DNA from: Kineococcus xinjiangensis
GTDB lineage: Bacteria > Actinomycetota > Actinomycetes > Actinomycetales > Kineococcaceae
DNA length: 64,000 nt
NCBI RefSeq assembly: GCF_002934625.1
Contig: NZ_PTJD01000003.1
Span: 1-64,000 of the forward strand
Direction: 5' to 3'
Shown here: positions 23,876 to 29,878 of the stretch, in pieces
How positions within the stretch are numbered: position 1 is the first letter of the stretch
Layout of the letters: the number at the start of each line of letters is the position of its first letter
The notes under the pieces: generated by a model
What the model saw: only the letters and a program-made list of their open reading frames with translations
What the model was told of the DNA's origin: nothing
Databases searched by the model: none
Made by a program: the position numbers and the translations under genes

Positions 23876-23936
23876 GGCCGCCGCCACGGGCGGGCTGCGG
23901 ATGCCGTACCCCCGCCCTGTTGGCACCATCCCCGCC

Positions 23937-25634
23937 ATGGGGGACGAGCCGGAGCTGGGGCGGGCGCTGGTCGAGGCGCTGATGCTGCACCCGCACGACG
24001 CGCTCCTCGTCATGCGCGCCGTCCGCGACGAGGACGGCCGGGTCGTCGACTTCACCTACGCGCTGACCAACGACACCGCGGAGCTCAACGCGGGACGGCC
24101 GCTCGCCGGGCGCTCGATGCTGGAGGCCTGGTCGCGGGAGGACAGCCCCTTCCTCGACGTCTTCACGGCCATGCTCGAGGACGGCGGCTGCCTGCTCAGC
24201 GAGTACGACGGCTCCGGCCCCACCTCCGACCCGGCGCTGCACGGGCGCACCTTCGCCGTCTACGCCCGTGCCGCCGGCCCCGACCTCGTCGTGGCCCAGT
24301 ACCGCGACATCACCGGGCTGCGCCGCGCCGAGGCCCTGCTGCAGGAGCAGGCCACCCACGACGTCCTCACCGGCCTGCCCAACCGCAGGCTCTTCCTGGA
24401 CCGCCTCGACGTGGCGATGGCCCGCCTCGAGCGGCACCCCGCCACGCTCGCCGTCCTGTACTGCGACCTCGACCACTTCAAGCAGGTCAACGACACCCTC
24501 GGCCACGGCGTCGGCGACCGGCTCCTGCAGCAGGTGGCCACCGCCCTGCGCGGGGCGCTGCGTCCCGCCGACACCCTCGCCCGCTTCGGCGGCGACGAGT
24601 TCGTCGTGCTGTGCGAGGACCTCGAGAGCACCGACGCTGCGCACGACCTGGCCGAACGGCTGCGCGCCGCCGTGCCCCCCGCGCTGCGCATCGAGGACCG
24701 CGACGTCCAGGTGGGCCTGTCGGTGGGGGTCAGCACCACCGACAGGCCGGCGCCCGTGGAGCGCGTGCTCAGCGAGGCGGACACCGCCCTCTACGCCGCC
24801 AAGCGCGCGGGCCGGCGCCGGGTGCACGTCTTCGGCGAGGAGATGCGCGCGGCCTCCCGGCGCCGCTACCACGTCGAGTCGGGCCTGTACGGGGCGCTGG
24901 AGCGCGAGGAGTTCCTGCTGCACTACCAGCCCAAGGTGCACATCACCTCCGGGCGGATCAGCGGCGTGGAGGCCCTGCTGCGCTGGCAGCACCCCGACGA
25001 GGGGCTGCTGCTGCCGGTGGAGTTCCTCGACGTGGTGGACGACGGCGGCCTCGTGCTGCCGGTGGGTGAGTGGGTGCTGCGCCGTGCCTGCGAGGAGGCC
25101 GCGCGGTGGGGGAGCGCGGCGGAGACCCCCCTGGTGCAGGTCAACCTCTCCGCCCGCCAGGTGACGTCCCCGCTGCTGGTCGAGCTGGTGCGCGACGTGC
25201 TGGCGGTCACGGGGCTGCCGCCGGCGCGCCTGGAGCTGGAGGTCACCGAGGGGCAGGTCCTCACGAACATGCGGGCCGCCGTCGCGGTGCTGCAGGACGT
25301 GCGCGACCTGGGTGTGGGGGTGGCGCTGGACGACTTCGGCAGCGGCTACTCCTCCCTCGCCTGGCTGCAGCGGCTGCCCGTGACCACGCTCAAGCTCGAC
25401 CGGGCCTTCCTCAGCGACCTCACCACCGCCCCGGGCAGCGCCGCCATCATCCGCGCCGTCGTCGACCTCGGGCACGCGCTGGGGCTGCGCGTCGTGGGCG
25501 AGGGCGTGGAGAACGCCGGGCAGCTGGAGGCGCTGCGGGGCCTCGGGGTCGACGAGGCGCAGGGCTTCCACCTCGCCCACCCCATGCCCGCCGCCTCCCT
25601 GCGCCGGATGCTCTCGCCGCCCGCGTCGCGCTGA
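23937..25634 (+). CDS. GGDEF-EAL cyclic-di-GMP turnover protein with PAS-like sensor
   Basis: 565 residues. Residues 1-130 form a PAS-like region ending Q-Y-R-D-I-T-G-L-R-R-A-E. The GGDEF domain spans about 135-300, with an intact G-G-D-E-F at 218-222 and an R-P-A-D inhibitory-site motif five residues ahead. The EAL domain covers about 320-560: E-A-L at 345-347, E-V-T-E, D-D-F-G-S-G-Y-S-S-L, K-L-D-R and E-G-V-E all present, so both synthase and phosphodiesterase sites look competent. No membrane segment, so probably cytoplasmic. ATG at 23937. It follows menG by 61 bases on the same strand, though a functional link is not evident. Confidence 0.92.
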   Translation: MGDEPELGRALVEALMLHPHDALLVMRAVRDEDGRVVDFTYALTNDTAELNAGRPLAGRSMLEAWSREDSPFLDVFTAMLEDGGCLLSEYDGSGPTSDPALHGRTFAVYARAAGPDLVVAQYRDITGLRRAEALLQEQATHDVLTGLPNRRLFLDRLDVAMARLERHPATLAVLYCDLDHFKQVNDTLGHGVGDRLLQQVATALRGALRPADTLARFGGDEFVVLCEDLESTDAAHDLAERLRAAVPPALRIEDRDVQVGLSVGVSTTDRPAPVERVLSEADTALYAAKRAGRRRVHVFGEEMRAASRRRYHVESGLYGALEREEFLLHYQPKVHITSGRISGVEALLRWQHPDEGLLLPVEFLDVVDDGGLVLPVGEWVLRRACEEAARWGSAAETPLVQVNLSARQVTSPLLVELVRDVLAVTGLPPARLELEVTEGQVLTNMRAAVAVLQDVRDLGVGVALDDFGSGYSSLAWLQRLPVTTLKLDRAFLSDLTTAPGSAAIIRAVVDLGHALGLRVVGEGVENAGQLEALRGLGVDEAQGFHLAHPMPAASLRRMLSPPASR

Positions 25635-25736
25635 CGGTCCCCGGCGGCACCCGTCCCCGGTTGCCGCCTCCTGGGGGCGGGGTCAGGGTGGTCGGGTCCA
25701 GCGCCCGGTCCGGGCGCACAGCATCCGGAGGTACCC

Positions 25737-26198
25737 GTGAAGCGCAGCGTCCTCGCGTCGATAGCCCTGGCGGGAGCAGGTGCGGGCGCCGGAGCCGCCG
25801 TCGCCCGGCGCTTCCGCGCCGGGGCGGAAGCCGGCGCCGGCGCGCTGCGCTGGCACGTCGTCACCGTGCTGCGCGCCCCCGAGGAGGTCCTCGTCGACGG
25901 CACGCCCCCGCAGCCGCTCGCCGATCTCGGCGACGCCGTGGAGGTGCGGGTGCAGCCCGCCCCCGGCGACCGCGGCACGGAGCTCGCCGTCCGGATGCGG
26001 CCGAGCGCGCCACCGCCGCGCGACGGGCAGGACCCCCGCCGCGTGCTGCGCACCGCGCTGCGCGAGTCGAAGCAACTGCTGGAGGCGGGCTCGGTGCTCC
26101 GCGTCGACCCCCGTCCCGCCGGGAGGCGGAAGGCCACACCCACGGGGGCCCTGCTCGACGCCGTCGTCCGCCGCGCACCGGGGGAGGGGGCGCTGTGA
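25737..26198 (+). CDS. Hypothetical protein, SRPBCC-like, coupled to the alcohol dehydrogenase
   Basis: 153 residues. A basic and hydrophobic N-terminus (M-K-R-S-V-L-A-S-I-A-L-A-G-A-G-A) could be a membrane anchor. Then W-H-V-V-T-V-L-R-A-P-E-E-V, P-L-A-D-L-G-D-A-V-E-V-R-V and a terminal D-P-R-R-V-L-R-T-A-L-R-E-S-K-Q-L-L-E-A-G recall polyketide-cyclase/SRPBCC-type proteins with a helical tail, a fold that binds small hydrophobic ligands; that is a weak call. GTG start at 25737 after CCGGAGG. Its stop overlaps the next start (GTGA, 26195-26198), so the two proteins are translationally coupled. Confidence 0.6.
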   Translation: MKRSVLASIALAGAGAGAGAAVARRFRAGAEAGAGALRWHVVTVLRAPEEVLVDGTPPQPLADLGDAVEVRVQPAPGDRGTELAVRMRPSAPPPRDGQDPRRVLRTALRESKQLLEAGSVLRVDPRPAGRRKATPTGALLDAVVRRAPGEGAL

Positions 26199-27370
26199 GG
26201 GCGCTGTGCTGGAACGGGGTCAACGACCTGCGCGTGGAGACCGTGCCGGACCCGCAGATCCTCAACGACCACGACGTCATCCTCAGGATCCGCCTCAGCA
26301 CCGCCTGCGGCTCCGACCTGCACCTGGTCGGGGGCTACGTCCCCTTCGCGCGCTCCGGTGACGTCCTCGGGCACGAGTTCCTCGGCGAGGTCGTCGAGGT
26401 GGGCAGCGCCGTGCGCCGGCACCGGGTCGGCGACCGCGTCGTCGTGAACTCCTTCATCGCCTGCGGGAGCTGCTGGTACTGCACGCAGCAGGAGTACACC
26501 CTCTGCGACAACAGCAACCCCAACCCCGGCATCACCGAGACGACCTGGGGACAGTCGATCGGCGGCTGCTTCGGGTACACCCACGCCACCGGCGGCTTCG
26601 CCGGCAGCCACGCCGAGTACGTCCGGGTGCCCTTCGCCGACGTCGGCGCCTTCCCCGTCCCCGAGGGCCTCTCCGACACCGCCGCGCTGTTCGCCTCCGA
26701 CGCGGCCCCCACCGGCTGGATGGGCGCGGAGCTGGGCGGCGTGCGGCCCGGTGACGTGGTGGCCGTCTGGGGCGCCGGCGGCGTGGGCCAGATGGCCGCG
26801 CGCGCCGCGATCCTCCTCGGCGCGGAACGCGTGGTCGTCATCGACCGGCTGCCGGAGCGCCTCGGGCAGGCCCGTGACCGCATCGGCGCCGACGTGCTCG
26901 ACTACACCGCCACCGACGTGGTGGGGGAGCTGCGCGAGCTCAGCGGCGGGCGCGGTCCCGACGTCTGCATCGAGGCCGTCGGCATGGAGGCCCACACCCC
27001 GGGCCTGCAGCACGCCTACGACAAGGTCAAGCAGCAGCTGTTCCTGCAGACCGACCGCCCCTCGGCCGTGCGGGAGGCGGTGATGGCCTGCCGCAAGGGC
27101 GGCAGCGTGTTCGTCCTCGGGGTCTTCGCCGCGCTGGTCGACAAGTTCCCCCTCGGGGCCGTGATGAACAAGGGCCTCACCCTGCGCGGTGCGCAGCAGC
27201 ACGGGCAGCGCTGGACGCCGATGCTGCTGGAGCGGATCGCGGCGGGGGAGCTGCCGACCGAGCACCTGGCCACCCACGTCATGCCGCTGGAGCAGGCGCC
27301 GGAGGGTTTCCGCCTCTTCAAGGAGAAGGAGGACGGCTGCGTGCGGGCCGTGTTCGACCCCTCCCGCTAG
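26195..27370 (+). CDS. Zinc-dependent alcohol dehydrogenase, formaldehyde-dehydrogenase-like
   Basis: 391 residues. Medium-chain dehydrogenase: catalytic zinc ligands in T-A-C-G-S-D and L-G-H-E-F-L-G-E, structural zinc cysteines in C-G-S-C-W-Y-C-T-Q-Q-E-Y-T-L-C, and an NAD-binding G-A-G-G-V-G-Q near residue 190. The length and the long insertion after the structural zinc site (N-S-N-P-N-P-G-I-T-E-T) resemble glutathione-independent formaldehyde dehydrogenase-type proteins common in actinobacteria. The substrate is unproven. The start overlaps the stop of the preceding gene by four bases. Confidence 0.9.
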   Translation: MRALCWNGVNDLRVETVPDPQILNDHDVILRIRLSTACGSDLHLVGGYVPFARSGDVLGHEFLGEVVEVGSAVRRHRVGDRVVVNSFIACGSCWYCTQQEYTLCDNSNPNPGITETTWGQSIGGCFGYTHATGGFAGSHAEYVRVPFADVGAFPVPEGLSDTAALFASDAAPTGWMGAELGGVRPGDVVAVWGAGGVGQMAARAAILLGAERVVVIDRLPERLGQARDRIGADVLDYTATDVVGELRELSGGRGPDVCIEAVGMEAHTPGLQHAYDKVKQQLFLQTDRPSAVREAVMACRKGGSVFVLGVFAALVDKFPLGAVMNKGLTLRGAQQHGQRWTPMLLERIAAGELPTEHLATHVMPLEQAPEGFRLFKEKEDGCVRAVFDPSR

Positions 27371-27447: not shown

Positions 27448-27474
27448 TAGACTCGCTCGTGAAGGAATTCACGA
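27448..27474 (+). promoter_or_regulatory. Probable promoter with Rex-like operator
   Basis: TAGACT (27448-27453) could be a -10 box. Directly downstream is TCGTGAA-GGAA-TTCACGA (27457-27474), a perfect 7-base inverted repeat with a 4-base spacer. The Rex redox-sensor site is TTGTGAA-N4-TTCACAA; this differs by one symmetric base per arm. It lies 36 bases before the GTG of the quinone-chain reductase, where a bound repressor would block initiation. Seen directly; the identity of the regulator is inferred. Confidence 0.5.
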
Positions 27475-27509
27475 ACTGCCCGCGGACGGGCGCCCGGACG
27501 GAGGACGTC

Positions 27510-28844
27510 GTGCAGGCTGCAGCGCCGGCGGAGCTGCTGGACGCGGGAACCCGCGCCGACGCGCACGGCGGGCGCGACGCGGACGTCGTCGTCGTGGGCG
27601 CCGGCCCGGCCGGCAGCGCCTTCGCCGCCCACCTGGCCGCCACCGGCCGACGCGTCGTGGTCTGCGAGAAGACCGCCTTCCCCCGCGAGAAGGTCTGCGG
27701 TGACGGGCTCACCCCCCGGGCCGTGCGCGAGCTCGACCTGCTCGGCGTCCCCACCCCCCGGGAAGAGGGCTGGATGCCGAACCGGGGGCTGCGCCTCGTC
27801 GGCGGGGGCCTGCGGATGCAGGTGCCGTGGCCGGAGCTGTCCGCCTTCCCCGGCCACGGCCTCGTCCACACCCGGATGGGCTTCGACGCCGCCCTCGCCG
27901 CCCACGCCCGCCGCGCCGGTGCCGTCGTCTGCGAGCGCACCGCCGTCACCGCGCCCGTCCTCGACGAGCGCACCGGTCACGTCGTGGGCGTGCGCGTGCG
28001 CGAGGTCGACGCCGAGGGCCGCCGCGCCGGGGAGGAGCGGGTGCTGCGCGCCCCCGTGGTGGTCGCCGCCGACGGCGTCTCCGGGCGGATGGCGCTCGCC
28101 CTCGGGCTGCGCAAGCGGGAGGACCGCCCCCTCGGCATCGCCGTGCGCACCTACTTCCGCAGCCCCCGCTCCGACGACGACTGGATGGAGAGCTGGCTGG
28201 AGCTGCGCGAGAGCGGCAGCGCCGACCTCCTGCCCGGCTACGGCTGGGTCTTCGGCGTGGGCGACGGCAGCAGCAACGTCGGCCTGGGCGTGCTGGACTC
28301 CACCGCCGGCACCGGCCGCATCGACTACCGGGACCTGCTGCGCCGCTGGCTGAGCAGCATGCCGCCGGAGTGGGGCTTCACCCCGGAGCAGCAGGTGGGG
28401 CCCATCCGCGGCGCCGCCCTGCCGATGGCGTTCAACCGCACCCCGCACTACAGCCGCGGCCTCGTCCTGGTCGGCGACTGCGGCGGCATGGTCAACCCGT
28501 TCAACGGGGAGGGCATCGCCTATGCGATGCAGTCGGGGCGGCTGGCCGCGCAGGTCGTGGACGCCGCGCTGGACGCCCGCGACGAGCGCTCCCGCGAGCG
28601 CGTGCTGCACACCTACCCCGAGGCGGTTCGCGCCGAACTGGGCGGGTACTACACCCTGGGACGTGTGTTCGTGTCCCTCATCGGCCATCCGGAGGTCATG
28701 CGCGTGGCGACCCGCTACGGCCTACCCCGCCCCGGCCTCATGCGGCTCGTCGTGAAGCTGCTCGCCAACCTCGGCGAGCCCCGCGGCGGCGACGCCTCCG
28801 ACCGGGTGATCGCCGCCCTGACGCGTCTGGCGCCGTCCGCATGA
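27510..28844 (+). CDS. FAD-dependent geranylgeranyl reductase family protein (MenJ-like)
   Basis: 444 residues. N-terminal FAD motif V-V-V-V-G-A-G-P-A-G-S-A near residue 27, E-K-T-A-F-P-R-E-K-V-C-G-D-G-L-T-P-R-A, A-A-D-G-V-S-G-R, and G-D-C-G-G-M-V-N-P-F-N-G-E-G-I-A-Y-A near residue 330, the pattern of geranylgeranyl reductases. The actinobacterial homologue MenJ saturates an isoprene unit of menaquinone, and the neighbouring polyprenyl synthase supports that role. GTG at 27510 has GGAGG at good spacing. Its stop overlaps the next start (ATGA). In several actinobacteria nuo genes separate these two genes; here none do. Confidence 0.9.
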   Translation: MQAAAPAELLDAGTRADAHGGRDADVVVVGAGPAGSAFAAHLAATGRRVVVCEKTAFPREKVCGDGLTPRAVRELDLLGVPTPREEGWMPNRGLRLVGGGLRMQVPWPELSAFPGHGLVHTRMGFDAALAAHARRAGAVVCERTAVTAPVLDERTGHVVGVRVREVDAEGRRAGEERVLRAPVVVAADGVSGRMALALGLRKREDRPLGIAVRTYFRSPRSDDDWMESWLELRESGSADLLPGYGWVFGVGDGSSNVGLGVLDSTAGTGRIDYRDLLRRWLSSMPPEWGFTPEQQVGPIRGAALPMAFNRTPHYSRGLVLVGDCGGMVNPFNGEGIAYAMQSGRLAAQVVDAALDARDERSRERVLHTYPEAVRAELGGYYTLGRVFVSLIGHPEVMRVATRYGLPRPGLMRLVVKLLANLGEPRGGDASDRVIAALTRLAPSA

Positions 28845-29878
28845 GCCGGCCGCTGCTGTCCAACGAGCCCGTCGCGGCCGCTCCCGGCGGGCTGCCCACT
28901 TCCGACGCGGGCCTGGAGCCCTCGCTGCGCCGCGGCCTGGAGGAGGTGGAGGCGCGCCTGCGGGAGGCGGTGACGAGCACCGACGCCCTCGCCGACTCCG
29001 CCTCCCGCCACCTCGTGGAGGCGGGCGGCAAGCGGGTCCGGCCGATGCTGACGCTGCTGGGCGCGCACCTGGGCGACCCCGCCGACCCCCGGGTGGTGGA
29101 GGCGGCCGTCGTCGTGGAGCTGACGCACCTGGCGTCGCTGTACCACGACGACGTCATGGACTCCGCGCCCACGCGGCGCGGGGCGCCCGCCGCGCACCAG
29201 GTGTGGGGCAACAACGTCGCCATCCTCACCGGGGACCTGCTCTTCGCCCGCGCCTCCAACCTCGTCGCCGGCCTGGGGCCCGAGGCGGTGCGCATCCAGG
29301 CCACCACGTTCGAGCGGCTCTGCCTCGGGCAGCTGCACGAGACGGTCGGGCCGGGCCCCGAGGAGGACCCGGTGGCGCACTACCTGGGGGTGCTCTCGGA
29401 CAAGACGGCCTCCCTCATCGCCACCGCCGGCCGCTTCGGCGCCATGTTCGGCGGCTGCGACGACGCCACGGTGGAGGTGATGATCCGCTACGGCGAGGAC
29501 GTCGGGGTGGCCTTCCAGCTCGCCGACGACGTCCTCGACCTGACCAGCGACGTCGGGGAGTCCGGCAAGCGGCCGGGCACCGACCTGCGCGAGGGGGTGC
29601 CCACCCTGCCGGTGCTGCTGGCGCGGCGGGCCGCCGCCGACGGCGACGCGAGGGCGAGGGCCGTCGTGGACCTCCTCGACTCGGGCCGCCTCGACGACGA
29701 CGAGGTCCTCGCCGAGGCGGTGGCGCTGCTGCGGGCGCACCCGGTCACCGAGGCGGCGCGGGCGACGGCGCGGGAGTGGGCCGAGCGGGCCCAGCGCGCC
29801 CTCGTGCCGCTTCCGCAGGGCCCGGCGGCGCAGGCGCTGGCGACCTACGCGGCCTCGGTCGCCGACCGCGTCGGCTGA
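28841..29878 (+). CDS. Polyprenyl diphosphate synthase
   Basis: 345 residues, trans-isoprenyl diphosphate synthase. First aspartate-rich motif D-D-V-M-D at 103-107 (H-D-D-V-M-D-S-A-P-T-R-R-G) and second D-D-V-L-D at 229-233; G-G-K-R-V-R-P near residue 62 binds isopentenyl diphosphate. The short first motif and the absence of bulky residues before it suggest a long-chain product such as the menaquinone side chain. ATG at 28841 overlaps the reductase stop by four bases, so the pair is translationally coupled and probably shares the Rex-like control site. Confidence 0.92.
   Translation: MSRPLLSNEPVAAAPGGLPTSDAGLEPSLRRGLEEVEARLREAVTSTDALADSASRHLVEAGGKRVRPMLTLLGAHLGDPADPRVVEAAVVVELTHLASLYHDDVMDSAPTRRGAPAAHQVWGNNVAILTGDLLFARASNLVAGLGPEAVRIQATTFERLCLGQLHETVGPGPEEDPVAHYLGVLSDKTASLIATAGRFGAMFGGCDDATVEVMIRYGEDVGVAFQLADDVLDLTSDVGESGKRPGTDLREGVPTLPVLLARRAAADGDARARAVVDLLDSGRLDDDEVLAEAVALLRAHPVTEAARATAREWAERAQRALVPLPQGPAAQALATYAASVADRVG

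Follow-up and report, generated by a model that had tools for sequence, protein, structure and literature searches.

A Rex-type operator upstream of menaquinone side-chain genes in Kineococcus xinjiangensis, probably inherited from an ancestral operon containing complex I genes

The targets of Rex in Streptomyces avermitilis include rex-hemAC1DB, atpI and nuoA1-N1 (PMC5355995). The nuoA1 operator was mapped by DNase I footprinting with Rex, and the hppA operator (TCGTGAATCAATTCACGA), a TCGTGAA-N4-TTCACGA variant of the Rex motif, was bound by Rex in vitro in electrophoretic mobility shift assays (PMC5355995). A related gene neighbourhood has been described in Actinomyces oris, in which a ubiE-ggr-nuo cluster places ggr and menaquinone genes next to the nuo genes; the part of that report available to us describes no Rex site there (PMC5478893). 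Among the titles and abstract openings of the literature on Rex with menaquinone or geranylgeranyl reductase, no paper describing such a link was found, and an actinobacterial site of this kind may have been predicted earlier.

The locus compared here with these systems lies in a 64-kb stretch of the Kineococcus xinjiangensis genome, called the window below, and its features are listed in Table 1. The palindrome TCGTGAAGGAATTCACGA has a single exact occurrence in the window; its two 7-bp arms match perfectly around a spacer of 4 bp. It had been predicted to differ from the Rex consensus by one symmetric base per arm and to lie just 3' of a -10-like box, ahead of a reductase-polyprenyl synthase pair. 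Both statements were confirmed: the departure from TTGTGAAN4TTCACAA consists of T2 to C and A17 to G (two mismatches in total), and a gap of 3 nt separates TAGACT from the palindrome, with ggr and pps following. In 38 of 38 relatives examined, a TANNNT box stands 8-17 nt 5' of the palindrome; because of this difference in spacing, the palindrome of K. xinjiangensis would cover the inferred transcription start itself. The site is identical to the S. avermitilis hppA operator outside the spacer, although the latter serves a proton pyrophosphatase gene and lies 195 bp from its start codon, unlike the site at ggr.

Table 1 Features of the ggr-pps locus (positions in the window)
Feature	Position	Strand	Remarks
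-10-like box TAGACT	27448..27453	+	by eye from the sequence; transcription start inferred at ~27459-27461
Rex-type operator TCGTGAA-GGAA-TTCACGA	27457..27474	.	overlaps the inferred transcription start; kept 5' of ggr across Actinomycetes
Shine-Dalgarno-like GGAGG	27500..27504	+	precedes GTG 27510; similar GGAGGAC...GTG layout in other Kineococcus
ggr, geranylgeranyl-reductase family flavoprotein, probable menaquinone side-chain reductase (MenJ-like)	27510..28844	+	TIGR02032; GTG 27510 is the most likely start
pps, polyprenyl diphosphate synthase	28841..29878	+	PF00348, 4e-58

The ggr product passed the TIGR02032 cut-off at 234 bits and scored 223 bits against the MenJ equivalog model of NCBIfam, under the cut-off of 700 for that model. 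Its closest named relatives are from Kineococcus species (76-79% identity). The start codon of pps (ATG) shares bases with the stop codon of ggr (ATGA), an arrangement seen in translationally coupled genes, and the best NCBIfam match of pps is a mycobacterial nonaprenyl diphosphate synthase, under the cut-off of that model. Genes resembling menD and menG were recognised nearby by eye on the translations, and MK-9(H2) has been reported for Kineococcus (PMC7472656). The protein families, these neighbours and the reported quinone together suggest that ggr and pps serve menaquinone synthesis. Between the menG-like gene and ggr (23876-27370), a GGDEF-EAL-type protein, another ORF and a zinc alcohol dehydrogenase are encoded; these genes look inserted, since in other Kineococcus the apparent end of menG lies directly 5' of the ggr promoter.

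The palindrome by itself is no evidence for an operator, because about 18 perfect 7-bp inverted repeats with a 4-bp spacer are expected per 64 kb at the composition of the window. A window search for TCGTGAAN4TTCACGA with up to two mismatches returned this site alone, and shuffled sequence gave 0.06 on average. Across the 4.6-Mb genome, GTGAAN4TTCAC occurs five times (the reversed-pattern control gave 0), and five places, including the site upstream of ggr, lie within two mismatches of TTGTGAAN4TTCACAA. A chance palindrome was considered and ruled out, since across the class the site has been kept 5' of ggr. In a first set of 51 loci, it was found 5' of ggr in all five other Kineococcus and in most other genera. 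A second sample spanned the class; there, the site was present at 61 of 71 orthologous loci from Rex-bearing genomes, with 11-14 of the 14 consensus letters (61 of 64 once the Streptomyces-like family f21 is left out), and shuffled upstream regions reached at most 11 of 14 in 1600 trials. The variants run from TCGTGAA..TTCACGA to the perfect TTGTGAAN4TTCACAA, the latter in families f18 and f19. Among 72 distinct ggr sites, GTGA and CAC are invariant and T1 (65/72), A7 (70/72), T12 (71/72) and A18 (72/72) nearly so, an invariance that is partly circular because sites were chosen by likeness to the Rex motif, although their scores split sharply, 11-14 against the background. Position 2 is C in 42 sites, T in 21, A in eight and G in one, and position 17 is A in 43, G in 28 and T in one.

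The f21 loci carry no site upstream of ggr (0/7). Four of these loci were examined further, and in two of them the stretch from ggr to nuoA contains TTGTGACCTGCTTCACAT, which is letter-identical to the S. avermitilis nuoA1 operator; the label "Streptomyces-like" rests on this identical operator and the gene order. The nuoA1-N1 operator of S. avermitilis thus shares with the site at ggr both the motif and the ancestral gene neighbourhood, and its identical 18-mer recurs in the two f21 loci. In contrast, the Kineococcus operator precedes ggr, the nuo genes are absent, and ggr and pps are its only visible clients.

A rex gene, on whose presence the original prediction was staked, was found once in the genome (G000:C10:140518). 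It encodes an intact-looking protein of 309 aa with both Rex domains, PF06971 (Put_DNA-bind_N, 71.5 bits) and PF02629 (CoA_binding). The region upstream of rex contains TTGTGCGCGCGTTCACAA, and TTGTGAACGCTATCACAA, a site with one mismatch, lies 5' of an AtpI-like ORF followed by atpB (AtpI was called by eye and had no Pfam match, AtpB matched PF00119). The counterparts of both operons are Rex targets in S. avermitilis (PMC5355995). Both operators belong to the same motif family as the ggr site and are presumably read by the same Rex. However, they keep T2/A17 (TTGTG...CACAA), whereas the ggr site has C2/G17; at the autoregulatory rex sites, position 2 is T in 26 of 26. From this comparison, the C2/G17 site is possibly a weaker, tuned operator. 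The expectation of Rex-type sites near other respiratory genes therefore held in part: they occur at rex and atpI, but with TTGTG...CACAA ends instead of the TCGTG variant, and none was convincing upstream of cydA in this genome, where the best match had 9 of 14 consensus letters. Several genome-wide sites with three mismatches fall in coding sequence, and none stands at an obvious respiratory gene.

The presence of the site follows that of rex. Of 50 relatives, 44 have rex and 40 of these carry the site, whereas none of the six in which rex went undetected does (Fisher p 1.3e-5, uncorrected for relatedness). Independent losses are fewer than six, since three of the six rex-less relatives are Micropruina. 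As nuoA still follows ggr in five of the six rex-less loci, loss of complex I does not account for the missing site there. In the class sample, the rex-less genomes G056 and G069 have no site either. Rex-bearing loci without a site are L024, L032, L044 and L055 in the first set and three genomes outside f21 in the second. One genome (G109) has the site with rex undetected in a 94% complete assembly; its congeners G062 and G081 have rex.

The main rival is that a Crp/GlxR-type regulator binds the site, alone or with Rex, and that cAMP or another signal controls ggr-pps. The E. coli CRP consensus TGTGAN6TCACA overlaps the Rex motif, GTGAN6TCAC being common to both; CRP-type sites have been described for M. 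tuberculosis Rv3676 (GTGnnAnnnnnCACA; PMC4005916), and CGTGAAGGAATTCACG matches TGTGAN6TCACA with two symmetric mismatches. Genes for CRP-type helix-turn-helix (HTH) proteins are present in the K. xinjiangensis genome, one of them at G000:C12:15363, and the variation at positions 2 and 17 of the ggr sites (T2 in 21/72), unlike the rex auto-operators, may be tolerated by a CRP-type half-site. However, the site tracks rex: clear Crp HTH genes occur in four genomes that lack both rex and the site (G042, G046, G056 and G069), which disfavours Crp as the main reader. Very little variation is seen at A7 and T12, which fall outside the CRP core, or at T1 and A18 (with the circularity mentioned above), and the f21 homologue of the site was footprinted with Rex (PMC5355995). 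Taken with this evidence, the Crp reading appears improbable.

Two further explanations were rejected. It could be argued that the GTG within the palindrome (27459), which lies 5 nt past TAGACT and whose reading frame runs uninterrupted into ggr, starts a leaderless ggr mRNA and that the palindrome is a coding accident; this is very hard to credit, as only 9 of 38 relatives, and not one of the five other Kineococcus, have such an open frame from this GTG, the Shine-Dalgarno-like GGAGG accompanies the downstream GTG instead, and the -10 box of the relatives lies 8-17 nt away from the palindrome. A hairpin formed by the 5' leader RNA and acting on stability or attenuation, suggested by a transcript that would open with a stem of about 7 bp and a 4-nt loop, has next to no probability, since 33 of 72 distinct sites have bases at positions 2 and 17 that do not pair, the core is kept letter by letter and not via compensatory changes, and a protein-DNA site agrees with both the loss together with rex and the footprint at the f21 site.

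The reading of the palindrome as a Rex-like operator is thus supported by the rex gene, the sites at rex and atpI, the conservation at ggr and the loss where rex is missing. As to its origin, ggr in the relatives is followed by nuoA, nuoB and onward, and the operator there drives ggr-nuoA... in most of them. In eight of eight non-Streptomyces loci checked over 20 kb, a pps homologue stands about 16 kb further on, past nuoA, nuoB and nuoF. In A. oris likewise, ggr and menaquinone genes adjoin the nuo genes, as in this ancestral layout, and the nuo genes are retained (PMC5478893). In the K. xinjiangensis genome, neither NuoA nor NuoD gave a match, and NuoD gave none in five other Kineococcus and three Pseudokineococcus genomes. 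The loci of both genera have pps directly after ggr. Pseudokineococcus (L021, L024 and L032) has no operator at ggr, and rex is still found in two of the three genomes. These gene orders are most simply read as loss of a nuoA-N block that once separated ggr from pps, with the operator retained in Kineococcus but not in Pseudokineococcus. On this evidence the palindrome is very probably the operator of the NADH-sensing repressor Rex on ggr-pps, inherited from an ancestral ggr-nuoA...nuoN-pps operon.

Since the operator belongs to that ancestral operon, the ancestral Rex link would have covered complex I and the quinone tail together. The comparison supports a Rex link at ggr that is old and class-wide, and not peculiar to the Kineococcus genome. 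Redox control of quinone tail genes had been put forward as a notable link in its own right; the control itself gains support, but its novelty to this locus does not stand, as it appears old, class-wide and ancestrally joined to complex I. What would set Kineococcus apart is that the operator apparently outlived complex I, leaving Rex on the quinone-tail genes alone.

Rex binding to such sites and the response to NADH/NAD+ are known from the Streptomyces literature, and by analogy binding, repression and their physiology are inferred for K. xinjiangensis. At low NADH relative to NAD+, a Rex dimer would sit on 27457-27474, over the predicted start, and block ggr-pps transcription. A build-up of NADH, as under oxygen shortage or slow respiration, would release Rex and raise the output of the enzymes for assembly and partial saturation of the menaquinone tail. 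In the Kineococcus lineage, loss of the complex I genes would have brought ggr and pps together with the operator kept. It is plausible, if somewhat short of probable, that in a bacterium without complex I the quantity or degree of saturation of menaquinone (MK-9(H2)) is governed by NADH/NAD+, the Rex switch having been narrowed by gene loss to quinone-tail synthesis and C2/G17 being a weakened operator under selection. If the Rex reading of the palindrome is right, synthesis of the menaquinone tail would belong to the Rex regulon of Actinomycetes alongside complex I, as a long-standing target shared across the class via the ggr-nuo-pps operon. Kineococcus would then separate complex I from the quinone, and the survival of its operator would be a natural test of the worth of quinone redox control, for which Pseudokineococcus, without complex I and without the site, would offer a ready comparison.

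Two minor observations were made at other loci. In L215 (2887-2903), 5' of a reverse-strand cydA without a Rex site, there is a BlaI/CopY-like palindrome (TACGACCTCTTGTCGTA), and this upstream region may also hold a divergent BlaI-type repressor gene. In some relatives, DtxR/IdeR-like iron boxes, such as TTAGGCTCGCCTAA (L026:4873-4886) and TTAGGTCTGCCTAA (L036:4870-4883), lie 5' of the Rex site and hint at an added iron control of ggr-nuo.
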